Assembly: GCA_020853525.1 (NCBI GenBank)
Contig: JADYYS010000053.1
Span: forward strand, 1 to 64,000
From: Ardenticatenales bacterium
Lineage (GTDB): Bacteria > Chloroflexota > Anaerolineae > Epilineales > Epilineaceae
Reading direction: 5' to 3'
DNA: 64,000 nt
In this document: piece by piece, positions 2,765-59,044 of the stretch
How the letters are laid out: each line of letters opens with the position of its first letter
How positions within the stretch are numbered: the stretch's first letter is position 1
The notes under the pieces: model-generated
Told to the model about the DNA's origin: nothing
Database searches by the model: none
Seen by the model: the letters and a program-made list of their open reading frames with translations, nothing else
Translations under genes and position numbers: made by a program

Positions 2765-4345
2765 TCAACGCCACATGAAATACGGGCTGTCGAACAGCAA
2801 CGCCACCGCCATCGGCACCCGCTCCGCGGCCTCGTCCGCCGTGACCCGCCCCGTGCCGCCCCCGGCGACGACCTCGACGAGCATCGCCCGGTCGCTGTCG
2901 ATGAGCGGCCGCGGCAGCAGCCGATCGGCCCAGTAGTCGACGATCGCGCCGGCCTCGCCCGGCACCGCGTCACCCGCCATCTGCTCGACGAGGTCGATAT
3001 CGATGCCGCCCAATCGGTTCTCGGCGGCGGCGAGGCCGAAGTTCCAGCGGGAGAGCATGATGTGCGCCCCCTTCCAGCGCGTGCCGACGTCCGGGTAGCC
3101 GTCCGGCGAACGCCAGCGGAAGGGCATGTGGGCCATCAGCTGGAGGTAGCGTTCAGGGCGACCGCTGTAGTCGCCGTCCTTGGGGATCGTGAGCACGCAC
3201 GACGCGTCGACGCCGAGGCAGCGCAGCACGGCCGCCCAGAACTCCATCGGCCGCCGGATCTTGGCCGGCCCGCCGCCGCTCGGCTCGATGACGGCGGCGG
3301 CGAACTCGGGCGAAGAGAACAGGGCGCGAACCATCGCCCGGATGTCGCCGTCCGCGCCGAACGCCGCGGCGACGCGCTCGACGAGGGCCGCGGGCGGCTC
3401 GTCGGCGACGAGGCGGGCGCAGAGGCGGCGGGCGACGTGCCGGCGGCAGCTCGGATGGTCGACGAGCCGGTCGAGGATCTCGTGGCCCGCATCGACGCCG
3501 GTCGCGCGAATGGGCAGGCCGAGGACGGTCTTGGCGCTGCTGTCGTGGTCGGCGGCACGGAATTCGAAGCGCCACGTCGCGTCGCTCCGGTTCCAGCCGG
3601 TGAAGCCGCGCGCGACCGCCTTGACGTCCGCCTCGCCGTAGCCGCCGCCGACGCCGAGCGTGTGGAGCTCCATCACCTCGCGAGCGTAGTTCTCGTTCGG
3701 TCCGCGGCGCGTGTTCGTCAACGTGCTCAGGTACTGCATCATCGCCACGTCGGCGGCGTCGGCGTGCAGGAGGCCGCGGAATGTGAGGAGGGCGTGGCGG
3801 CGCAGGACGTCGCGGTCGGCGACGGTCTGCATCATCATGTGGTAGTCGTCCATGTAGACGCTGAAGTGGTTTGCCCAGTGGTCGACGAGCACCTCGAACA
3901 GCTGGTGGCGACCGTGCACCGCGCGGTACAGCGTCGCGGCGACGAGCTCATCGCGGATCCGGGCGCGCTGGACGAGGTCGGCCGAGGCGTCGTGGATCCT
4001 CTCGGCCGTCCAGCCGAGCGTCTCGAGCGGCGCGAGCGCGGCCTCGACCGCCGGATCGCTTCCCGCCGCCCCGACATCGGCCGCGAGCTGCGCATCCAAC
4101 CATCCGGACGTGCCCATCGCCTCGACGCGCGCGACATCGCCCCTGCCCTGCCCGAACGTGGCGCGAGACAGGAGGTGGCGCGCGGCGCCGGGCGGCGGCA
4201 TCGCCCGCGTCCGCCCCGCGGCGAAAGCGACGCTCGGGCGGCGCAGCCAGTCGGCGACGTCATCGCCGCGGAACGCCGGGCCGAGCGCGGCGGCGGCGGC
4301 GGCGGCGGAGCTGCCGGCGATCAGGCGGCGGCGGGTGATGGGCAT
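2765..4345 (-). CDS. DUF1800 family exported protein
   Basis: The 526-residue protein begins with a Tat-type signal (ITRRRLIAGSSAAAAAAALG). It then carries the DUF1800 hallmarks: AARHLLSRATFGQG near residue 54, LVDHWANHFSVYMDD near 155, RGPNENYAREVMELHTLGVG near 215, and AVARGFTGWN. Length is typical. DUF1800 proteins are exported and almost always encoded beside DUF1501, as here, with the spacer containing a stem-loop. No catalytic function is proven for the family. The ATG at 4345 directly precedes the Tat motif, so the start is good. The 153 bases between this gene and the lipoprotein gene upstream on the same strand may hold the promoter; I see no clear -10/-35 pair. Confidence 0.92.
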   Translation of the reverse strand: MPITRRRLIAGSSAAAAAAALGPAFRGDDVADWLRRPSVAFAAGRTRAMPPPGAARHLLSRATFGQGRGDVARVEAMGTSGWLDAQLAADVGAAGSDPAVEAALAPLETLGWTAERIHDASADLVQRARIRDELVAATLYRAVHGRHQLFEVLVDHWANHFSVYMDDYHMMMQTVADRDVLRRHALLTFRGLLHADAADVAMMQYLSTLTNTRRGPNENYAREVMELHTLGVGGGYGEADVKAVARGFTGWNRSDATWRFEFRAADHDSSAKTVLGLPIRATGVDAGHEILDRLVDHPSCRRHVARRLCARLVADEPPAALVERVAAAFGADGDIRAMVRALFSSPEFAAAVIEPSGGGPAKIRRPMEFWAAVLRCLGVDASCVLTIPKDGDYSGRPERYLQLMAHMPFRWRSPDGYPDVGTRWKGAHIMLSRWNFGLAAAENRLGGIDIDLVEQMAGDAVPGEAGAIVDYWADRLLPRPLIDSDRAMLVEVVAGGGTGRVTADEAAERVPMAVALLFDSPYFMWR

Positions 4346-11281: not shown

Positions 11282-12498
11282 ACACTGCAGTCGACACCGT
11301 AGATTCCGCCGCGACGAACCGATCGCACGGTCGAACCCTCGGCCGTGTCGGCCTCGTCGCCCTCGCCGCGCTGCCCGTCCTCCTCCTGGCCGCGTTCATC
11401 GCCTACCTGCTCTTCGACCGCACGGGCCTGCCCGCTTCGAGCGCGCCGCCCCTCGAGGATCTCACGGTCCAACGCGTCGACCTGCCGCGGCCCGGCGAGA
11501 TGGAGGTCCGCGTGATGAACGGCGGCCCGTCGCCGGTGACGATTGCCCAGGTAGCCGTCGACGACGCGTTCTGGTCGTTCGCGATCACGCCGGGCACGAC
11601 GATCCCGCGGCTCGGCAGCGCGGTCATCGAGATCCCGTACCCGTGGGTGCGCGACGAGCCGCACGAGGTGATGCTCATCACGAGCACCGGCGTGACGTTC
11701 GGCGGGGCGGTGGACGTTTCGCTGCCGCGGCCGGCGCGGGACTGGGGGGCGTTCTGGCGATTCTTGCTCCTCGGCTTCTACGTCGGCGTCGTCCCAGTCG
11801 CGCTCGGCATGCTCTGGTTCCCGGTCGTGAAGCGGATGGGCACGCGCGGCATGGCGTTCGTGCTGAGCCTGACGGTCGGGCTCCTGGTATTCCTCTTCGT
11901 CGACACGCTGCTCGAGGCGCTCGAGACGGCGGCGCGCCTGCCCGGCGGCCTGCACGGCACGCCGCTCGTCTGGCTGGCAGCGCTGCTCACCGTCGGCCTG
12001 ATCGAGGCCGTCGGGTCCGGCCGGCGCGGCGCGCGGTCGCCGCTGGCCGTCGCCGCGCTCATCGCGCTCGGCATCGGCCTGCACAACTTCGGCGAGGGGC
12101 TCGCGATCGGCGCGGCCTACACGCTGGGGGAGGTGGCGCTCGGCGCGTTCCTGATCATCGGGTTCACGCTCCACAACATCACCGAGGGCTTGGCCGTCGC
12201 GACGCCGCTGACGAAGGCGGCGCCGCGGGCGGTGCACTTCATCGCCCTGACGCTCGTGGCCGGCGCCCCGGCGATGCTCGGCACGCTCGTCGGCGCCTAC
12301 GCCTACTCGGACCTCGGCGCGACGCTCTTCATGGCCGTCGGCGCGGGCGCGATCGCCCAGGTGGTCTACGCCGTCTCGAAGTACTTGCTCGGGCTGATGA
12401 AGAAGGACGAGCTGCCGGGGCTGAGCTGGGTCACGGTGGGCGGGTTCGCGGCGGGGGTGGCGATTATGTATGCGACGGCGTTGGTGGTGGCGGCGTGA
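11278..12498 (+). CDS. ZIP family divalent metal transporter with N-terminal extension
   Basis: The 406-residue membrane protein has an N-terminal helix (about residues 24-44), an extracytoplasmic domain of some 110 residues rich in beta strands (about 50-155), and then at least seven membrane helices. The ZIP signatures GLHNFGEGLAIG and LHNITEGLAV contain the paired His/Asn/Glu metal ligands of transmembrane helices 4 and 5. ZIP proteins move Zn, Fe or Mn toward the cytoplasm. Its start overlaps the stop of the multicopper oxidase (ATGA), so the two are made together. The ectodomain is unusual and might dock the oxidase or bind metal. Substrate is not predictable from sequence. Confidence 0.9.
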   Translation: MNTAVDTVDSAATNRSHGRTLGRVGLVALAALPVLLLAAFIAYLLFDRTGLPASSAPPLEDLTVQRVDLPRPGEMEVRVMNGGPSPVTIAQVAVDDAFWSFAITPGTTIPRLGSAVIEIPYPWVRDEPHEVMLITSTGVTFGGAVDVSLPRPARDWGAFWRFLLLGFYVGVVPVALGMLWFPVVKRMGTRGMAFVLSLTVGLLVFLFVDTLLEALETAARLPGGLHGTPLVWLAALLTVGLIEAVGSGRRGARSPLAVAALIALGIGLHNFGEGLAIGAAYTLGEVALGAFLIIGFTLHNITEGLAVATPLTKAAPRAVHFIALTLVAGAPAMLGTLVGAYAYSDLGATLFMAVGAGAIAQVVYAVSKYLLGLMKKDELPGLSWVTVGGFAAGVAIMYATALVVAA

Positions 12499-12544: not shown

Positions 12545-12688
12545 ACCGGCGGCTGAAGCCGGCCGGCTGGTGGCCTTCGGCCATTGCGCCCGCCTCCGCG
12601 GGCGCTTCGGACTTCTGGGTGCCCGCGAAGGCGGGCACCATGGCGGCCCGTCGGGGACGCCTGCAGCCGGCCAGCTTCAGCTGCCGGT
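12545..12688. repeat. 144-bp dispersed repeat, copy 1
   Basis: Its ends form an imperfect 25-bp inverted repeat (beginning ACCGGCGGCTGAAGCCGG on one side and, read from the other strand, ACCGGCAGCTGAAGCTGG). Inside are further GC-rich inverted repeats, including GTGCCCGC...GCGGGCAC. A second copy, in reverse orientation and of equal length, lies at 34043-34186. It codes for no transposase, so it is a MITE- or REP/BIME-like element. It sits 46 bases after the ZIP stop codon and may act as a terminator. Confidence 0.85.
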
Positions 12689-12733
12689 GGATTGCGACTC
12701 GCCGTCATCCGCAGATCGTCTCATGACGGCATA

Positions 12734-13339
12734 CTAGCGCCAGACGTCGTCCAGCGGCAGGACGAAACCGGGAAGCTCGGGATCGCCCGCCATCTGCGCG
12801 GGGCCGACGACGACCTCCACCGGCCTCGTCGGTCGATAGACGTACACCGTGCGGTCGATCGGGTCGAACAGCCATCCCAGACGCGCTCCGTTGGCGATGT
12901 ACTCGTCCATCTTGGCCTGCACGGCGGTGAGGCGATCGGACGACGAGCGCAGCTCGACGACGAAGTCGGGGCAGAGGGGAGCGAAGCCTTCCTCGGCCCC
13001 GGGTGGCAGCGCGGCGAGCCGGTCGTTTGTCACCCAAGCGGCGTCCGGCGACCGGATGGCGCCGTTGGGGAGCTTGAAGCCGGCGGATGAGTCATAGCTA
13101 GTGCCGGTGCCGTCGGCGCGCGCCCATAGATAGAGCAACGCACCGATCGCAAGATTGCGACGGCCAGAAGTACTGCCCGCGGGTGCCATGATGATGACGG
13201 CTCCTTCGGCTGTCCGTTCGATGCGCAGGTCTGGGTTCTGGCGACAGAGATCGGCGAACGACGCGTCGTCGACGGACAGAGCCGGGCTCAATTGGAGATG
13301 GATGGCGGAGCCGGGCTCGGCTAGGCGGGGTTCGATCAT
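12734..13339 (-). CDS. Uma2 family (DUF820) putative PD-(D/E)xK nuclease
   Basis: The 201-residue protein shows the Uma2 pattern: FADLCRQNPDLRIERTAEG near the N-terminus, NLAIGALLYLW, then SPDAAWVT (D99) and CPDFVVELRSSSD (E129-x-R131), ending with KMDEYIANGARLGWLFDP. D99 and E129 match the restriction-like active site; the usual ExK is ExR here, while K142 of the following helix may replace it. Family members are abundant in Chloroflexota and Cyanobacteria and tend to be solitary, with unknown biology. It stands alone between a repeat element and a surface-protein cluster. Confidence 0.88.
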   Translation of the reverse strand: MIEPRLAEPGSAIHLQLSPALSVDDASFADLCRQNPDLRIERTAEGAVIIMAPAGSTSGRRNLAIGALLYLWARADGTGTSYDSSAGFKLPNGAIRSPDAAWVTNDRLAALPPGAEEGFAPLCPDFVVELRSSSDRLTAVQAKMDEYIANGARLGWLFDPIDRTVYVYRPTRPVEVVVGPAQMAGDPELPGFVLPLDDVWR

Positions 13340-27285: not shown

Positions 27286-27300
27286 CGCTCCTCGGCCGTC

Positions 27301-27350
27301 GGCTCAAGTCGGCTCAAGTCGGCGCAAGTCGGCGCAAGTCGGCGCATCGG
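27301..27350. repeat. 10-bp tandem repeat in a divergent promoter region
   Basis: Five exact 10-bp units stand in register: two GGCTCAAGTC, two GGCGCAAGTC and one degenerate GGCGCATCGG. They lie between the start of the HEAT-like gene (27285) and ferrochelatase (27467). One unit equals about one helical turn. Confidence 0.85.
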
Positions 27351-34042: not shown

Positions 34043-34186
34043 GCCGGCAGCTGAAGCTGGCCGGCTGGAGGCGACCCGGACGGGCCGCCATGGTGCCCGC
34101 CTGCGCGGGCACCCAGAAATCGGCAGCGCCCGCGCAGGCGGGCGCAATGGCCGAAGGCCCTCAGCCGGCCGGCTTCAGCCGCCGGT
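34043..34186. repeat. 144-bp dispersed repeat, copy 2 (inverted)
   Basis: The reverse complement matches copy 1 (12545-12688) over the full 144 bases with scattered differences. It begins directly after the stop codon of the AhpD-like gene (3 bases) and ends 17 bases before the tRNA-Trp -10 box, so it fills the spacer. Repeat ends are imperfect 25-bp inverted repeats. Confidence 0.85.
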
Positions 34187-35031: not shown

Positions 35032-36099
35032 ATGACCACTCCTCGTCCGTCGTCCGGCCGCTCCCATCGCGCCGCCCTCGCCCTGCCGCTCGCCGTCGTC
35101 CTCGCGACGACGGCCGCCTGCTCGGCCACGCCGACGCCCGTCGTCGACGTGCCGCCGCCCGTTACGGTCGCCGCCGATGCCGGGTCGATGATCGATGCGG
35201 CCGCGCCGACCGCGCCAGCGGGCGCGCCAGCCGCCGGGGCGTCGGCCAGCGTCGCCGGCCTGCAGGCCGCCCTCGCGGCGCGCGACTACGACGTCCTCCA
35301 GGCGATGATGGGCGACGCGTTCGTCCTCGGCCTCTACCGCTCCGAGGGTATGACGCTCGACCCGGCCGCCGCACGCACCGCGCTCAAGACGCAGTACCTG
35401 CCGCCCGCCGAACACGCCGTCGACACCACGGACGACCGGAACGCCTTCCCGGCGATCGACCCGCCGCTGGAGACGATGTTCGACCCGGCGCTGATCGTGC
35501 ACCAGCTGCTGTTCAGCCGCGGCTGGGGCGCGGATGGACAGGGCGAGGCGGCGCTCGTGCTGGCGGAGCGGGCGGACGGATCGGTGTACTGGCACGGGAT
35601 GGTGCTGGCGCCGTCGGGGTTCGGCGGCGCGACGGGCGACGCGGCGGGCAGCGGGAGCGGCGACGGCAGCGATGTCGCAGCAGCTGCCGGCGGCCCCGTG
35701 AGCGGCGATGGCTTCGCCGTCGATGCGCCGGCCGGCTGGACCGCCACGGAGAGCGGCGGCGGCGTGATCCTGACGTCGTTCGCGATGGACACGGCCGGCC
35801 ACGGCGGGCTCGGGGCGGGGCAGACGAAGATCGACGTCCTCGAGCTCGTCGCCGACCCGGCGCCGGCGACGCTGGCCGAGGCCGTTGCCATCGTGAAGGC
35901 CGGCGACGCTGGTGCCACGTGGAGCGAGGGCCCGTTCACGCTCGCCAACGGCCTGACCGGCACACGCCTGATCAGCGCGGAGTCCACGGCGGCCATCGTC
36001 GACCTCGACGGGCGGTACCTCGTCGCCAGCTGTTACGGCGACGGCTGCGCGGCGGGCGGGGTGTTCGATGCGGTGGTGGCGTCGGTGCGGGCGGAGTGA
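35032..36099 (+). CDS. Lipoprotein with C-terminal PsbP/DUF1795-like domain
   Basis: A 355-residue product with a signal peptide ending in a lipobox (ATTAAC), then a Pro/Ala linker and two domains. The first (about residues 70-205) has an NTF2/DUF-like pattern (AALAARDYDVLQAMMGDAFV). The second (about 220-355: DGFAVDAPAGWTATESGGGV, ending LVASCYGDGC) resembles PsbP/LpqN-type lipoprotein folds. A Gly/Ser-rich linker joins them. AAGGA precedes the ATG. Its stop overlaps the GTG of the membrane glycosyltransferase (GTGA), so the two proteins are made together. No specific function is known. Confidence 0.75.
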   Translation: MTTPRPSSGRSHRAALALPLAVVLATTAACSATPTPVVDVPPPVTVAADAGSMIDAAAPTAPAGAPAAGASASVAGLQAALAARDYDVLQAMMGDAFVLGLYRSEGMTLDPAAARTALKTQYLPPAEHAVDTTDDRNAFPAIDPPLETMFDPALIVHQLLFSRGWGADGQGEAALVLAERADGSVYWHGMVLAPSGFGGATGDAAGSGSGDGSDVAAAAGGPVSGDGFAVDAPAGWTATESGGGVILTSFAMDTAGHGGLGAGQTKIDVLELVADPAPATLAEAVAIVKAGDAGATWSEGPFTLANGLTGTRLISAESTAAIVDLDGRYLVASCYGDGCAAGGVFDAVVASVRAE

Positions 36100-37784
36100 C
36101 GGATGGGCCGGCTTCGCGCCGATCGCTCGTCGCCCTCTGCACCCTCGCCCTCGCCATCCGCCTCTACGCGCTCGGCCGCCCGTCCCTGTGGTTCGACGAG
36201 CTGCTGGAGGTCGAGCGCGCCGCCGGTCCCTGGCAGTCGCTCCTCTTCGGCCGCCCGATCGACCACGACCCCCCGCTCTTCGCCCTCGCGCTCCGCGGCT
36301 GGATCGCCGTCGGGCGGCTCCTCGGCTGGCCGTGGATCGGCGCGACGGGCGGCGCGGCCCCAGATCCAGCGAACGCCGCGGTCGATGTCGCGGCGCACCC
36401 CGGCTGGGCCGAGGCCTGGCTGCGCCTGTCGTCCGTCGCGCTCGGCGTCGCCGCCGTCGCGTTAACCGCTGTTTGGGCATCGCACCGGTTCGGACGACGT
36501 GTCGGACTGCTCGCTGCGCTCCTGCTGACGATGTCGCCGCTGGCGATCTACCACAGCCAGGAGGTAAACCAGTACGCGGCGATGATCACGGCGACGCCGC
36601 TGCTGCTGCTCATGCACGATCGTCTGTCTGCCGGCGCACGTCGGCGCGACTGGCTGGCCTATGGCGCATTGTCGGCGGCGGCCATCGCGACGCACTACGG
36701 CCTCGTGTTCCCGCTGCTCGCCCTCGGCAGCCACCTGGCTTGGCGGTCGTGGCGCGATCCGACGGGCCGCACCGACCGCGGCCGCGTCGCCGCGTACGCC
36801 GCCGCGATGGCCGTCGTCGTCGCCGTGCTCTTCACGCTCGGTCTCGGCGACCGGATGGCGGTGTCGCACGTCCAGCCGCGGCTGTGGGGGACGCACCTTG
36901 CCAAGGAGCTGGCGTACATCGGCGACGTGGGCTGGCGCGAGATCGTCGTCTACTTCCCGTTCCCGTTCGCGGGCGGGCCGGCGCTCGTGATCGCGAACGC
37001 GCTCAGCGTGCTGGCGCTCGTCGGGGCGGTGCGGTTGTGGCGGGGGGGCGGCGGCGGGCGAGTGCTCGTCGGCTGGTTTGTCGCGGGGACGTTGGCGATG
37101 ACGTATGCGACGAGCGTGGTGGGGTGGTATCCGCTCGGGTATCGGTACGGGTTGTTCAACTTGGTGCCGTACGTGGTGTTGGTAGCGGCGGGGGTGGTCG
37201 CGATGGGCGACGGCCTACGGCCCTCTCCCCCCGACCCCCTCCCCAAAGTTTGGGGGAGGGGGAGGATGCTTGGCGGATGGATCAGCCGGATTGCACGCGC
37301 GGGTTCGGTTGTCGTTGCGGCGACGGCGCTTGTCGCATTCGTGGCGTACTGGCCTCACGCACCGTGGACTGCCGGGAACCCGTACATCCACGTTCCCCGC
37401 GAAGACATGCGGCCCGTGCTACGCAACGTGGCGGCGGCCTGGCGGGCGGGCGATCGGCTGCTCGTGTACGACGGGGCGGCGGCGGCGGTGCGGTTCTACT
37501 GGCGGGGCGACTCGAAAGACGTCATTGCCCTGCCACCGTTCAGCCCGGGCGATGCCGCGACGGTCGAACGCATGCGCACGGCGCTGGCCCGTGCAGCAGA
37601 TGACATGCGCAGGACACCGCGCGGCGACTCAGGCCGTGCCTGGCTTGTCCTCAGCCACGCCGATCCCGGCGATGAGCCGATCCTGCAGCGCCAACTCGCG
37701 GACTTCGGCGCGCCATCTGCCGTAATCGTCTCTGCTGACGGAGCATCCGCGTCGCGACTCGAACCCCTCCCCCCTCGCCCCTGA
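36096..37784 (+). CDS. Membrane glycosyltransferase (GT-C, GT39/ArnT-like), repeat inserted
   Basis: The GTG start overlaps the upstream stop. The 562-residue protein has about eleven membrane helices. The first extracytoplasmic loop carries LWFDELLEVERA (D34, E35) and later HDPPLFALAL, the acidic motif of GT-C enzymes that use lipid-linked sugars. A C-terminal soluble domain (about 420-562) follows the last helix. Around residues 371-391 the sequence GLRPSPPDPLPKVWGRGR is the translation of a palindromic GC-rich repeat (37220-37266) inserted in frame between two helices. The enzyme probably glycosylates a lipid or an exported protein. The partner lipoprotein may be a cofactor or substrate. 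Confidence 0.87.
   Translation: MTDGPASRRSLVALCTLALAIRLYALGRPSLWFDELLEVERAAGPWQSLLFGRPIDHDPPLFALALRGWIAVGRLLGWPWIGATGGAAPDPANAAVDVAAHPGWAEAWLRLSSVALGVAAVALTAVWASHRFGRRVGLLAALLLTMSPLAIYHSQEVNQYAAMITATPLLLLMHDRLSAGARRRDWLAYGALSAAAIATHYGLVFPLLALGSHLAWRSWRDPTGRTDRGRVAAYAAAMAVVVAVLFTLGLGDRMAVSHVQPRLWGTHLAKELAYIGDVGWREIVVYFPFPFAGGPALVIANALSVLALVGAVRLWRGGGGGRVLVGWFVAGTLAMTYATSVVGWYPLGYRYGLFNLVPYVVLVAAGVVAMGDGLRPSPPDPLPKVWGRGRMLGGWISRIARAGSVVVAATALVAFVAYWPHAPWTAGNPYIHVPREDMRPVLRNVAAAWRAGDRLLVYDGAAAAVRFYWRGDSKDVIALPPFSPGDAATVERMRTALARAADDMRRTPRGDSGRAWLVLSHADPGDEPILQRQLADFGAPSAVIVSADGASASRLEPLPPRP
37220..37266. repeat. Palindromic C/G-tract repeat inside the glycosyltransferase gene
   Basis: A run of CCCTC and CCCCC blocks ends in AAA-GTTT and returns as GGGGGAGGGGG, giving a near-perfect hairpin of about 13 bp per arm. 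From memory, elements of this form are widespread dispersed repeats. It is in frame and adds about 18 residues to the protein. Confidence 0.75.
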
Positions 37785-37831
37785 ACTTCCCCTACTGCGA
37801 CGAGTCGTTGGAGTCTCCGCCGCACCGGAGG

Positions 37832-37963
37832 TCCGTTACTTCAAGGAACGGGTCGTTGTTCTTCAAGAAACACGGCGTTGTTCTTCAAGAAACAGCGCGC
37901 GGTTCTTCAAGAAGCAGGGCGCGGTTCTTGAAGAAACGCGGCTTGGTTCTTCACGAAGCACGA
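37832..37963. repeat. Six-unit tandem array of a 22-bp palindromic sequence
   Basis: Cores begin at 37837, 37859, 37881, 37903, 37925 and 37947, exactly 22 bp apart. Units 2-4 have TTCTTCAAGAA, unit 5 TTCTTGAAGAA, units 1 and 6 are slightly degenerate. The core is a perfect 5+1+5 inverted repeat. The array lies between the 3' ends of two converging genes and is far less GC-rich than its flanks. Spacing equals two helical turns, so all sites face the same side of DNA. No CRISPR-like unique spacers are present. Confidence 0.95.
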
Positions 37964-37979
37964 ATGGGGCCCAAGGCTC

Positions 37980-38963
37980 TCAATCCCCATACCCCCCCGG
38001 ATGCCCCCGATGCCACTCCCACGCCGACCCCACGATCGCCTCCAACCCCGCGAACCGCGGCGCCCACCCCAGATCGCGCCGCAGCGCCTCCGATGACGCG
38101 ATGAGCGTCGCCGGGTCGCCCGCGCGGCGGGGCGCGACGGTGTGCGGGATGGGATGGCCGGTGATGCGGCGGGCGGTCTCGATCACCTCGAGGACGCTGA
38201 ATCCCTGGCCGTTGCCGAGGTTGTAGGTCAGGACGGGATGATCGGCGAGCGCTTCGAGGGCAAGGATGTGCGCCTGGGCCAGGTCGACAACGTGGATGTA
38301 GTCGCGGACGCACGTGCCGTCGGGCGTGGGGTAGTCATCGCCGAAGACGGCGATGGACGGGCGCTGGCCGAGGGCCACCTGCAGGACGAGCGGGATCAGG
38401 TGGGTTTCGGGGTCGTGATCCTCGCCGCGCTCGGGCGTGCAGCCGGCCGCATTGAAGTAGCGCAGGCAGGCGTAGCGCAGACCGTGCGTGACGTTCAGCC
38501 AGTGCAGCATCCGCTCGATCGCGTGCTTGCTCTCGCCGTACGGCGAACCGGGCACGATCGCCTCGGTCTCGGCGATCGGGATCCGCTCGGGCCGGTCGAA
38601 CAGGTTGGCGGTCGAAGAGAGGATGAACCGCCCGACGCCGCGTGCCACGGCCGCCTCGAGCACGTTGGCGGCAAGGACGACGTTGTCGCGCAGGTACTTC
38701 AGCGGCTGCTGCATGCTCTCGCCGACGAGCGTGTAGCTGGCGAAGTGGAGGATGCCGTCGATGCCCGGGTGCGCGTCGAACAGCGCGCCGACCGCCGCCC
38801 GATCCGCCAGATCGACCTGGACGAACGTCGCGGCGGGGTGGACGGCGGCACGGTGGCCTTGGTAGAGGTTGTCGAACACGACGACGTCGTGGCCGGCGGC
38901 GATGAGCTCGGCCGTGGTGATGCTGCCGATGTAGCCGGCACCGCCGGTGACGAGAACTTTCAT
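37980..38963 (-). CDS. galE: UDP-glucose 4-epimerase
   Basis: A 327-residue short-chain dehydrogenase/epimerase with the NAD motif VTGGAGYIG (residues 5-13), [22 protein letters not shown], the active-site [10 protein letters not shown] (S116, S117, T118) and Y142-x-x-x-K146 ([11 protein letters not shown]). [11 protein letters not shown] and the closing [16 protein letters not shown] are typical of GalE. It interconverts UDP-glucose and UDP-galactose for surface glycans. The start at 38963 has AGGAG upstream. The gene ends only a few bases past the 22-bp array. No other sugar gene is adjacent. Confidence 0.93.
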
Positions 38964-39281
38964 GCGGGCAGGCTCCTGGGGCGATCGGGAGCGATCAGGC
39001 GCGATGGACGGCGCTGGCATCCAACGGACGATGAGGTCGACGATGGGGGGCAACGGCGTCCGATCATCGCACGCCGCCGCCCGGGCGCAAAGAAAAAACC
39101 CGGGGTCCGTCGCTCCGCCCCAGTCGCGACAGTCCCCAGGTTTTGTTCGGCTCAGGTGTTATCCGTCTGCCGTGGCAACAGGATAGGGCTGTCGGATGAG
39201 GGCCGCGTGAACGGCGGACGAACGGTCGATGAGGGCGCGCGGCGCCTCGTCGGGCGCACCGTCGGGCGGGCGAAATGACCG
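38964..39281. other. Intergenic region between galE and the CNNM operon
   Basis: This 318-base region holds the terminator described at 39093-39140 and no protein gene on either strand that I can support. A galE promoter must lie in it (galE reads leftward from 38963), but no clear -10/-35 pair was found. The stretch 39150-39281 shows nothing recognisable. Confidence 0.5.
39093..39140 (-). terminator. Rho-independent terminator of the CNNM/CorC operon
   Basis: Read on the minus strand, CCTGGGG (39134-39140) pairs with CCCCGGG (39099-39105) with an inner GTCGCGAC-type stem, and TTTTTT then TTT follow. It is 142 bases past the stop at 39282. This is the clearest U-tract terminator in the window. 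Confidence 0.6.
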
Positions 39282-40574
39282 CTACGAAGGGACGATCCGC
39301 GCCCGCGCCACCCCATGTCCCGCGACGGCCGTCACGACGATCCGCAACCCACGCCACTCGACGACGTCACCGACGACCGGCGGCCGGTTGAGGCGGGCCA
39401 GGACCAGGCCGCTGACCGTGTCGACCTCGTCGTCGTCGAGGCTGCGCTCCAGCGCCTCACCGACTTCGTCCAGGCGCAACGTGCCCGCTACGTCCAGGCT
39501 GCCGTCATCGTCCCACACGACGTCCAGCGGCTCGTCGGCGCCCTCGGCCACCTCACCGACGGCCTCCTCGCACAGGTCCTCGATCGTCACGATGCCATCC
39601 GTGCCGCCGTGCTCGTCCATGACGACGACGAGCTGTGTGCGGGCCGCGCGCATGGCGGCGAGGACCTCATCGAGCTCGCTTTGGGCGCTGAGGAAGACCG
39701 TCGGCCGAACGGCGGCACGGGTCAGCGCGCGATCGTCGCGCACCAGCCGGAGCACGTCCTTGATGTGCACGATGCCAACGATGTGGTCGAGGTCGCGTTC
39801 GTACACGGGGTAGCGCGTGTGCGTGTCATCGGCCAGGAAGCGCCGCAGGGCATCGGGCGAGGCGCCGAGCGGAAGGCCGTCCACGCGGACGCGCGGCACC
39901 ATGATCTCCTCGGCCATTCGCTCGCCAAAGCTGAAGAGGTCGCGCAGCATCTGGCCGGCCTCGGCCCGCAGCAGGCCGCCGGCCTCGCTCTCCTCCACGA
40001 GGTACTGCAGATCGCCCGGCGAATAGAAGTGGCCCGTCGATCGCTCGCGGCGGATCCCGAGCAGGTACAGCACGCCGTTGCCCAGCCGGTTCAGTCCGAC
40101 GACGAGCGGCAGGAAGACGGTCTGGATGAGCAGCATCGGCCGGGTGACCCACAGCACCGTCTGCTCCGCTTGGATCAGCGCCAGGCTCTTGGGAACCATC
40201 TCGCCGATGACGATGTGCAGATAGGTCAGGACCGCCACCGCCACCACCACGGCCACGGCATGGGCCGTGATCGACGCCGGCAGCCACGTCAGCCCCTGGA
40301 ACACGGGCTCCAGCCGCTCGGCGAGCTGGTGTTCGCCGTACATCCCCAGTCCGAGGCTGGCAACCGTGATGCCGAGCTGCGCCGTGGCGATGTACCGGTC
40401 CTGTCGCACGGGATCGCGCAGGATGCCCTCGACCAGCCGGGCCACCCGGTGCCCCTGCGCCGCCCGGCGCTCGATCGCCGCGCGCGGTGCGCCGATGATC
40501 GCGAACTCGGCAGCCACGAACAGCGCGTTCAGCAGCAGCAACAGCGCGACGATCGCGATCGGGCCGAAGGTCAC
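39282..40574 (-). CDS. CNNM/CorC (hemolysin family) membrane protein, second copy
   Basis: The 430-residue protein starts at a GTG that overlaps the upstream stop (GTGA). It has the CNNM (DUF21) membrane domain (LLLLNALFVAAEFAIIGAPR and VIGEMVPKSLALIQAEQTVL), a CBS pair (AEEIMVPRVRVDGLPLGASP and VVVMDEHGGTDGIVTIEDL) and a CorC_HlyC domain (about 345-430) ending in VVTAVAGHGVARARIVPS. Such proteins are implicated in Mg or Na-coupled Mg export and in lipid/envelope homeostasis; the function of many is unproven. It is a paralogue of its upstream neighbour, so the pair arose by tandem duplication. Confidence 0.9.
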   Translation of the reverse strand: MTFGPIAIVALLLLLNALFVAAEFAIIGAPRAAIERRAAQGHRVARLVEGILRDPVRQDRYIATAQLGITVASLGLGMYGEHQLAERLEPVFQGLTWLPASITAHAVAVVVAVAVLTYLHIVIGEMVPKSLALIQAEQTVLWVTRPMLLIQTVFLPLVVGLNRLGNGVLYLLGIRRERSTGHFYSPGDLQYLVEESEAGGLLRAEAGQMLRDLFSFGERMAEEIMVPRVRVDGLPLGASPDALRRFLADDTHTRYPVYERDLDHIVGIVHIKDVLRLVRDDRALTRAAVRPTVFLSAQSELDEVLAAMRAARTQLVVVMDEHGGTDGIVTIEDLCEEAVGEVAEGADEPLDVVWDDDGSLDVAGTLRLDEVGEALERSLDDDEVDTVSGLVLARLNRPPVVGDVVEWRGLRIVVTAVAGHGVARARIVPS

Positions 40575-56719: not shown

Positions 56720-59044
56720 ATGACCTCGACAACTGATGCGGACGCCGCACCGCGCCCGCGGCGGCGGACCGCCGCCGCGCCGGCCTCCGACGCCGCACCG
56801 CCACCGCCACCGCCACCGCCATCCACAACCGACGCCGCCCCGCCCGTACGCAAGCGGCGCACCGTCGCCAAAGCGGCCGAAACCACGGCGCCCAGCGCCC
56901 CGGCGGCCGGCTCGGAGCCGACGCCGGCACCCCGTGTCCGCCGCGCCCGTGCCAAGAGCGACGAGAACACAACGGCCGCAACGCCGGCCCCAATGCCGAC
57001 GTCGATCCCGGCAGCCGCAGCTGCGGCGCCCCCCGCCGCCGCGTCGGCGGCATCCGAACCGACCACCGCCCGTCGCCCGCGCGCCCGCACGGCCAAGGCC
57101 GCTGACGGCCCACCGAGCGCCGTGCCCGCCGCACCACCGATTGCGGCCGCTGCGCCCCCATCCGACGCGCCGCCGCGGGTCGAGCGGACCGACGCTCGCG
57201 GGGCGGGCGACCGCTCGAACGACACGCCGAGCGACCGCCCCGTCGATGTCGACCGCCCGGTCGGCCCTGTCGACGGCAACGGTGACGGCCGGCGAGAAGG
57301 CTACCGAAACAACCGCCGGCGACGGCGTGGGCGCGGCGACGGCACGCGCGAGCCCGGCGGCTATGCCCGCGGCCCGGTGCCCCCGACCGGCGACGTCATT
57401 CGGCCGCGCGACACGACGAACGAGCCGCGCGCCCGCGACCCGCAGCAGCCGGGCGGCTGGCGGCGCGACGACGCGATCCGCGACACGCGCCGCACGGACA
57501 CCGGACGCGTCGGACCCCGGGACGGCGGCACACGCTACGGCAACACGGCGCGGGACGACCGGCGATCCGGCGGTCAGCCACAGGGTGGTCAGCCACAGGG
57601 CGGTCAGTCTCAGGGCGGTCAGTCTCAGGGCGGTCAGCGGCAAGGCGGACAGTCCCAGGGCGACAACCGTTACGGCGGGGGCCGAAGCGGTCAGCAGGGC
57701 GGCCAGCAGGGCACGGGCCAAGCCGGCGGCGGTCGCCATGACGGCGGCCGCAGCGGGGGACGGCAGGACAGCGCGCGCGGCGGCGGGCGAATCGAGGGGC
57801 GGGGGCGGCACACCGGCCCGTCCCGCGAACGCGACGCACAGCGCCCGCCGGCCGGTCCGCCCGAGGACTGGGACGCGCCGGCTCCGGGCGGCCTCGAGGT
57901 CGGAGGGCATGCCGGGGCGGACTGGGTGTCCTATGAAGACCGGATCGCTGCCGAGGAGGCGCGCCGGCCCGGCGGGCAGCAGGTGATCGGCTACATCGAG
58001 CTTTCCAAGAACGGTAACGGCATCCTGCGCGCCGGCGGCCTGGCCGGTCGAACGGACCCGGTCATGCCGATGCGGCTCCTGCGCCAGTACGGCCTGCGCA
58101 GCGGCGACCTCGTCGACGGCTTGGCGCGGGGCACGCAGGTGGTCGAGGTGAACCAGGTGAACGGCCACGATCCGGTCGATCTGGCCAAGCGGCCGCACTT
58201 CGATACGCTGACGGCCGTGCACCCGGACAAGGCGCTGCTCCTGGGCGCGACCGCCGACAACCTGACCGGGCGGCTGCTCGATCTCGTGGCGCCGGTCGGG
58301 CGCGGCCAGCGCGGGCTGATCGTCGCGCCGCCCAAGGCCGGCAAGACGACGCTCCTCAAGGACATGGCCAACGGGCTCGCGCACGACCCCAAGCTCACGC
58401 TGCTCATCTGCCTCGTCGGCGAGCGGCCGGAAGAGGTCACGGACATGCGGCGCAGCACGAACTGCACCGTCCTGGCGGCCGACATGGACCTGCCGACCGA
58501 GGACCACACCCGCGTGGCCGAGATTTGCGTCGAACACGCCAAGCGGCTCGTCGAGGAGGGCAAGCACGTCGTCATCCTGATGGACAGCCTGACGCGTCTC
58601 GCACGGGCCTACAACCTGTCGATCAAGGGCGGCGGCAGCCGGACGCTCTCCGGCGGCATGGACGCCGGGGCGCTGCAGCCCGTCCGCAAGTTCTTCGGCG
58701 CCGCGCGCTGCGCCGAGGGCGGCGGCAGCCTGACGATCCTGGCGACGTGCCTCGTCGACACCGGCAGCCGGCTGGACGACCTGGTGTACGAGGAGTTCAA
58801 GGGCACGGGCAACATGGAGGTCCACCTGGACCGCAAGCTGTCCGAGCTGCGCTTGTTCCCGGCCGTCGACATCCGCCGCTCCGGCACACGGCGCGAGGAG
58901 CTCCTGTTCGACGCCAAGATGCTCGAACAAGTCCACACGCTGCGCCGCCAGCTCGCCCCGCTCGAGCCCGCCGCCGCGCTGACGGCCATGCTGGACGCGC
59001 TGCGCAAGCAGGCGATGCCGGACGGGTCGCTGGCCGGCCGGTGA
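56720..59044 (+). CDS. rho: Transcription termination factor Rho with long disordered N-terminal region
   Basis: A 774-residue protein. Residues 1 to about 420 are low-complexity Ala/Pro/Arg/Gly/Gln-rich sequence with a six-fold GGQxQ repeat (284-313). From about 425 on it is a complete Rho: RNA-binding domain ([17 protein letters not shown]), the connector ([20 protein letters not shown]), Walker [14 protein letters not shown] (about 536-548), [11 protein letters not shown], the Walker B region [14 protein letters not shown], and the Q/R loops with the final [21 protein letters not shown]. coli Rho has about 419 residues in all, so this enzyme carries an extra domain of nearly the same size. 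The stop overlaps the next gene (GTGA). Confidence 0.96.
57569..57658 (+). repeat. 15-bp in-frame tandem repeat in rho (GGQxQ, six units)
   Basis: Six units of 15 bases code [30 protein letters not shown]. The repeat lies in the disordered part of Rho. The in-frame length means copy changes keep the protein intact. Confidence 0.9.

Follow-up and report, generated by a model that had tools for sequence, protein, structure and literature searches.

A 22-bp phased array of palindromes in an Epilineaceae genome and its predicted link to HU-HIG-type DNA-binding proteins

Introduction

Non-specific packaging of DNA is the main role for which HU proteins are known. One branch of the superfamily, HU-HIG (Pfam ID PF18291), has reportedly undergone an expansion in Bacteroidetes, and the function of the expanded branch, so far as is known, has only been predicted. 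As for repeats, the iterons of the R6K plasmid are 22 bp long; REPs are conserved over the whole unit and form hairpins; and CRISPR repeats come with unique spacers of about 30 nt and with cas genes. "Mosaic tandem repeats" of 21 to 22 bp have reportedly been noted in several phyla; a literature search returned no paper on them. The literature searched, which left out most subscription journals, likewise held no description of arrays such as those presented here or of HU-HIG-linked 22-bp phased sites, and phased 22-bp arrays next to the gene are not known to have been reported as HU-HIG sites.

Here, we describe an array of six palindromes in a stretch of 64,000 nucleotides (referred to as the window) from an Ardenticatenales bacterium, positions 1 to 64,000 of contig JADYYS010000053.1 in the GenBank assembly GCA_020853525.1, together with its counterparts elsewhere in the same genome and the association of such arrays with HU-HIG-type genes.

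Results

Layout of the window array

The array consists of six 11-bp palindromic units with the core TTCTTSAAGAA and occupies positions 37837 to 37957 of the window. Its features and flanking genes are as follows.

36096 to 37784, plus strand: left flanking gene, coding for a PMT_2 (PF13231) glycosyltransferase-like protein (Pfam match on the open reading frame 35919 to 37781); its 3' end is 53 bp from the array
37837 to 37847, no strand: core of unit 1, TACTTCAAGGA, two mismatches
37859 to 37869, no strand: core of unit 2, TTCTTCAAGAA, perfect
37881 to 37891, no strand: core of unit 3, TTCTTCAAGAA, perfect
37903 to 37913, no strand: core of unit 4, TTCTTCAAGAA, perfect
37925 to 37935, no strand: core of unit 5, TTCTTGAAGAA, perfect, with G in the center
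37947 to 37957, no strand: core of unit 6, TTCTTCACGAA, one mismatch
37848 to 37946, no strand: five GC-rich 11-bp spacers (37848 to 37858, 37870 to 37880, 37892 to 37902, 37914 to 37924, and 37936 to 37946) and the cores between them; weak spacer consensus RCGCGGSSCGG
37980 to 38963, minus strand: right flanking gene, coding for an NAD-dependent epimerase (PF01370), which we take to be galE-like; its 3' end is 23 bp from the array

The unit starts (37837, 37859, 37881, 37903, 37925, and 37947) are separated by exactly 22 bp in all five intervals, and the six units, their strict spacing, and the converging neighbors are thus as stated in the preliminary description of this DNA, which had also correctly singled out units 2 to 5 as good and units 1 and 6 as degenerate. 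Its remark that the array is AT-richer than its surroundings holds as well, with a GC content of 50% in the array versus 71.5% in the whole window. At lag 22, 80 of 99 positions of the array are identical; dinucleotide shuffling of the window, repeated 200 times, yields 58 at most. The same description dismissed CRISPR on the grounds that there were no spacers; the dismissal stands, since the units are parted by 11-bp spacers with a weak consensus, and the grounds do not, as these spacers are variable and GC-rich.

Other tandem repeats in the window, at 57569 to 57662 (15 bp, 6.3 copies) and 27298 to 27346 (10 bp, 4.9 copies), are unrelated to the 22-bp array. There is also a dispersed GC-rich repeat: window segments 12612 to 12737 and 34044 to 34118 match the first 126 bp of contig C7 (95% identity over 126 bp and 93% over 75 bp, respectively), where the repeat copy (L196, 1 to 126) adjoins the array described below.

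Four arrays with one core

The genome (4.27 Mb in 76 contigs) contains exactly four TTCTTSAAGAA arrays, located on contigs C53 (the window), C43, C28, and C7. A two-unit pattern allowing up to 3 mismatches has 16 matches on the plus strand and 12 on the minus strand of the whole genome, compared to none for the reversed control; a three-unit sequence profile gives 20 matches in the whole assembly, 18 of them in the four arrays and two weak ones elsewhere. Perfect cores number 14, of which 11 lie inside the arrays and the remaining three appear to be coding, as they form in-frame codon runs by eye (e.g., TTC TTC AAG AAx). The genome search for the same unit that the preliminary description had proposed thus yields three further arrays, and because of these other copies the window array does not stand as a solitary sequence absent from all relatives, the finding that would have counted against its being a binding array. 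The genes flanking the four arrays include fusA, epimerase, RibD-type, and HU-HIG genes, and the loci are chromosomal-looking. A MITE-like imperfect inverted repeat lies directly to the left of the C28 array (L194, 4867 to 5042), with a related copy 7 kb away, at about 12078 to 12154.

The 23 units of the four arrays are spaced at 22 bp in every within-array interval, with no indels. Between arrays, identity is 0.77 for the cores, 0.41 for the spacers, and 0.33 for shuffled spacers; with cores conserved and spacers near random, it is therefore the core and the phase that are retained. Adjacent spacers are 51% identical, compared to 41% for spacers of different arrays, which points to an old duplication. 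The idea of an aging tandem array, put forward in the preliminary description, is accordingly right about the duplication and wrong about the decay, the cores being undecayed while the spacers have drifted. In sum, the window array is a real, selected-looking, multi-copy element.

The likeness of adjacent spacers would also be expected of passive minisatellites, i.e., 22-bp repeats that arise by slippage or other copying and are tolerated without any dedicated protein, any link to HU genes marking merely the places where repeats survive. The frequent location of the arrays near 3' ends, where insertions are tolerated, fits this explanation too, as does the sporadic occurrence of two arrays elsewhere in the class (see below). 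We nevertheless consider it unlikely, given that cores are kept while spacers are randomized, that all intervals are 22 bp without indels, and that unlinked loci carry one common palindromic core.

All four arrays can be folded into one long hairpin, with DNA z-scores of -3.4 to -8.4, as would be the case if the mirror-image units paired in a structured nucleic acid, such as an RNA terminator or a cruciform. When the cores are fixed and the spacers shuffled, however, the real arrays fold no better, with z-scores on the two strands of +1.0 and +1.2 for C53 (the window array, which does worse than the average shuffle), -0.2 and +1.3 for C43, and -0.7 and -1.2 for C28; only C7 is suggestive (-2.2 and -2.8). 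Since shuffled-spacer arrays fold equally well, pairing is a by-product of the palindromic cores, and a long hairpin with compensating spacers was rejected, the mild C7 signal excepted. An intrinsic terminator or structured RNA was rejected likewise: the window array gives no match to an intrinsic terminator, window positions 36000 to 40000 give none in Rfam, and the hairpin is unselected. This makes a structured nucleic acid a very improbable explanation.

A 22-bp period and repeated dimer sites are also reminiscent of iterons and centromeres, and the preliminary description had suggested an iteron or a partition site. That suggestion fares poorly. Neither rep nor par genes are among the genes identified in the flanks of the four loci, the window array itself being flanked by a glycosyltransferase and an epimerase gene, and the genome has its single perfect canonical parS elsewhere (G000:C55:95471-95486, L223). 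Iteron origins were rejected for want of an adjacent Rep gene and ParB-parS because the arrays contain no parS palindrome; a plasmid or phage origin was rejected after a blastn search with 211 bp gave no match in plasmids or phages. We therefore give hardly any credence to a role of the array as a replication or partition site.

Convergent placement, as seen in the window, is no rule for the class of 22-bp arrays: among 10 arrays of this genome that have both neighbors called and overlap no gene, 3 lie between convergent, 1 between divergent, and 6 between tandem genes.

Distribution in other genomes

The TTCTTSAAGAA core is found in none of 59 other genomes. The search of relatives that the preliminary description called for had a divided outcome, as the two sampled members of the family and four of the order lack this core, and 22-bp arrays with other cores are present in both family members. 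In a sample of 396 genomes of the class (including this one), the two-unit pattern matches 4, of which this genome and G319 have arrays and two show chance matches, while a relaxed three-unit pattern matches 3. The single 22-bp arrays of two class members, G319 and G313, are absent from other genomes of their genera; for that reason they are not counted as support here, and they are the sporadic cases that favor passive minisatellites.

HU-HIG genes in the same genome and family

The C28 array, whose core is that of the window array, lies 224 bp upstream of an HU-superfamily gene. Its product, of 145 aa, matches the HU-HIG family (PF18291) with an E value of 2.7e-9 and 37.6 bits, against a curated cutoff of 26.2, and the HU-HIG profile in turn matches solved HU and IHF chains. 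A PADLOC search with five HU-HIG proteins gave no match. In a set of 41 genomes, PF18291 has 10 hits in this genome, 9 in G001, and 4 in G002, compared to 0 to 3 in each of the other 38; an eleventh member in this genome was found on C9. HU-HIG genes are thus expanded in this bacterial family. A local profile search (E up to 1e-3) detected no HU-HIG member in the window or in the examined pieces of C43 and C7, and the TTCTTSAAGAA core is tied to one protein by a single adjacency, at one of the four arrays.

Association of HU-HIG genes with 22-bp arrays

The adjacency of array and gene on C28 led to a test for 22-bp arrays at HU-HIG loci in general. From the 31 PF18291 hits in 41 genomes, the surroundings of 30 were taken, and 25 family-proper loci entered the flank test. 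The test omitted G001:C369 and G033:C1:390286 (neighbors another member in the same stretch), as well as sub-cutoff hits in G019, G004, G003, and G027 (short or ordinary HU-like), and the later-found C9 member is outside the 25 loci. Self-similarity was scored at lags 16 to 29 within 600 bp of the gene, blind to sequence, and an array was defined as at least 38 matches of 66.

By this measure, 12 of 25 HU-HIG-type loci have a lag-22 array within 600 bp, compared to 1.4% of 500 random windows from this genome, a conservative control because the presence of arrays was part of the reason for choosing the contigs that supplied these windows. At the same 25 loci, the nine remaining lags that are not multiples of 3 give 4 of 225. 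The binomial P value for the lag-22 excess (2e-16) is indicative and not strictly prospective, since an initial inspection of these loci preceded the choice of lag and of the cutoff of 38. The association of HU-HIG-type genes with 22-bp arrays is shown statistically, and the enrichment of lag 22 alone, as opposed to repeats generally, is a further point against passive minisatellites.

The arrays are distributed over 5 of 10 loci in this genome, 3 of 8 in G001, 4 of 4 in G002, and 0 of 3 in G033 and G012 together; at both G033 loci, which belong to a different family within the class, the array has a period of 21 bp (42 and 50 of 66; L309, 3165 to 3250, and L310, 2772 to 2877). HU-adjacent arrays may precede or, in most cases, follow the gene, and they lie no farther than about 400 bp from it. 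No lag-22 array reaching 38 lies within 600 bp of the HU-HIG genes on C49, C62, C3, C71, and C36 of this genome; there is a 23-bp array about 0.9 kb from the C49 gene, and the best lag-22 score at the C9 member is 37, below the threshold. In G001, L242, where the repeats are limited to a coding-like one of 21 bp and another of 16 bp, was counted as a miss, and so was L241, with a score of 36, although its GTCACGCCGTGAC array looks real.

Some other regulator or nucleoid protein could bind the TTCTTSAAGAA arrays, the position of the C28 HU-HIG gene being incidental for this core. The lone HU-HIG neighbor among the four arrays is compatible with that, as is the failure of core and protein similarity to track each other in all cases. 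On the other side, many HU-HIG loci with different cores show such an adjacency, so that C28 fits a pattern, and we regard a protein of another kind as a rather improbable ligand, ranking below even the minisatellite explanation.

Locus-specific cores and dispersed copies

The cores differ between HU-HIG loci: they include GATCACGGTGATC at L247, CCTTGCAAGG at L246, GTCACGCCGTGAC at L241 (the sub-threshold array), TTCCTTGCCTGT at C65, TGTCT-CGGTT-AGACA at C25, and CACAGTGAAT and CACNGTGAAT at C64. Many HU-adjacent cores are palindromic or are present both forward and inverted in a single array, as would suit a dimer; the arrays at L229, L248, and C65 are not evidently palindromic, and that at L230 is only partly so. 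Judging by sequence comparison, a simple one-protein-one-core rule does not appear to be followed. The arrays of G002 L248 and C65 of this genome have near-identical cores and proteins in different clades, while G002 L247 and L248 encode proteins that are 84% identical and have different cores.

The beginnings of 20 contigs, 291,512 bases chosen regardless of arrays, contain two lag-22 arrays with a score of at least 41 of 66, and a further 400,000 bases hold two more, C6:54726 and C24:39257. Altogether, about 1.56 Mb was scanned, the first 865 kb of which had been picked partly for holding arrays or HU-HIG genes; it contains 13 lag-22 loci scoring at least 41, whereas no other lag between 13 and 40, multiples of 3 aside, has more than 3. 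A run of N in one padded contig was discounted because it adds spurious matches to every lag in the pooled count. Some dispersed arrays can be assigned to an array beside an HU-HIG gene (a home array). Thus, the array at C8:9087 shares its core with the C64 home array (profile match at C8:9107, with a score of 68.9 versus a maximum of 24.6 for six column-permuted profiles), and the array at C19:286 shares its core with that of G002 L247 (39.4 versus a null maximum of 15.2). The cores of the dispersed arrays C62:827, C6:54726, C24:39257, and C26:3415 were matched to no home array here.

22-bp arrays in other phyla

A pattern scan of named genomes, in which at least 118 stretches were listed, led to Prevotella sp. 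Tb.RUG.460. This genome has 22-bp-period arrays with TTCTTGAAGAA half-units, one of the four located arrays lying between converging genes. They differ from the window array in that the other 11 bp are also conserved and invertible, giving longer palindromes. In 287,060 bases taken regardless of arrays, lag 22 is found at 7 loci, compared to 0 to 2 for other lags not divisible by 3. The single HU-HIG gene found there is preceded, just before its start codon, by a 22-bp array (42 of 66) that is not evidently palindromic; the link between HU-HIG and 22-bp arrays in Prevotella, based on this one locus, is suggestive only. The flanks of the HU-HIG gene of Bacteroides ihuae (L029, one locus) contain no 22-bp array.

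In the same Prevotella genome, 11-bp blocks that recur, also in inverted orientation, make up mosaic arrays of 22-bp period, several per 300 kb (L358, L361, L365, L367, and L198 to L201). The viral contig L166 has, at 4116 to 4230, an array of TTGAAGAAATCAGTGA-type units with a spacing of roughly 23 bp.

Discussion

The preliminary description regarded the window array as a multi-site protein-binding array. That is still the best reading, and binding is predicted from one palindromic core in four arrays, the strict phase, the free spacers, and the tie of 22-bp arrays to HU-HIG genes. On balance, we find it probable, by a slight degree, that the window array, one of four, serves as a multi-site DNA-binding array whose likely ligand is the HU-HIG-type protein encoded on C28. 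From these observations we infer binding by that protein, a stoichiometry of one dimer per core, bending of the DNA, and a role in the cell. The C28 array would be the home array of its HU-HIG protein, and one homodimer would occupy each 11-bp palindrome. With a period of 22 bp, the dimers would sit nearly on one face of the helix, two turns apart and side by side, an arrangement that could bend the DNA or wrap it over about 120 bp. Binding at the home array, which lies upstream of its gene, could be autoregulatory. At dispersed sites, such as the one between converging genes in the window, the array might act as an architectural or boundary element, or it might be a landing site that spread with its protein.

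More tentatively, and short of calling it probable, we can envisage a new genome system, in which lineage-expanded, sequence-specific HU-HIG proteins would each be paired, next to the gene, with a 22-bp phased palindromic array specific to it and be able to seed dispersed copies through the chromosome, with the window array as a dispersed member and similar pairs in Bacteroidota. The link between HU-HIG and phased arrays gives the expanded HU-HIG branch a concrete predicted target. If true, it would provide a natural set of related proteins with differing DNA specificities (e.g., those of G002 L247 and L248) and would explain puzzling 22-bp tandem repeats in distant bacteria.

Several known systems share parts of this organization. 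Dispersed intergenic palindromes are common to the arrays and to REP/RAYT and BIME elements; in the arrays, however, only the 11-bp core is kept, the phase is strict, and hairpin pairing is unselected. Plasmid iterons, such as those of R6K, are similarly direct repeats about two helical turns apart that are served by one binding protein, whereas the arrays described here have no Rep gene identified alongside, are dispersed and intergenic, and combine a palindromic core with free spacers. The centromeres of parABS systems resemble the arrays in having a dedicated DNA-binding protein and palindromic sites that cluster near its own gene, with other sites dispersed. They differ in the palindrome (going by the parS consensus), while a strict 22-bp phase, an HU-type protein, and many paralogue-specific cores set the arrays apart. 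As to the described HU-HIG (PF18291) proteins, the C28 protein and its paralogues match the family, and a lineage-specific expansion is common to both.
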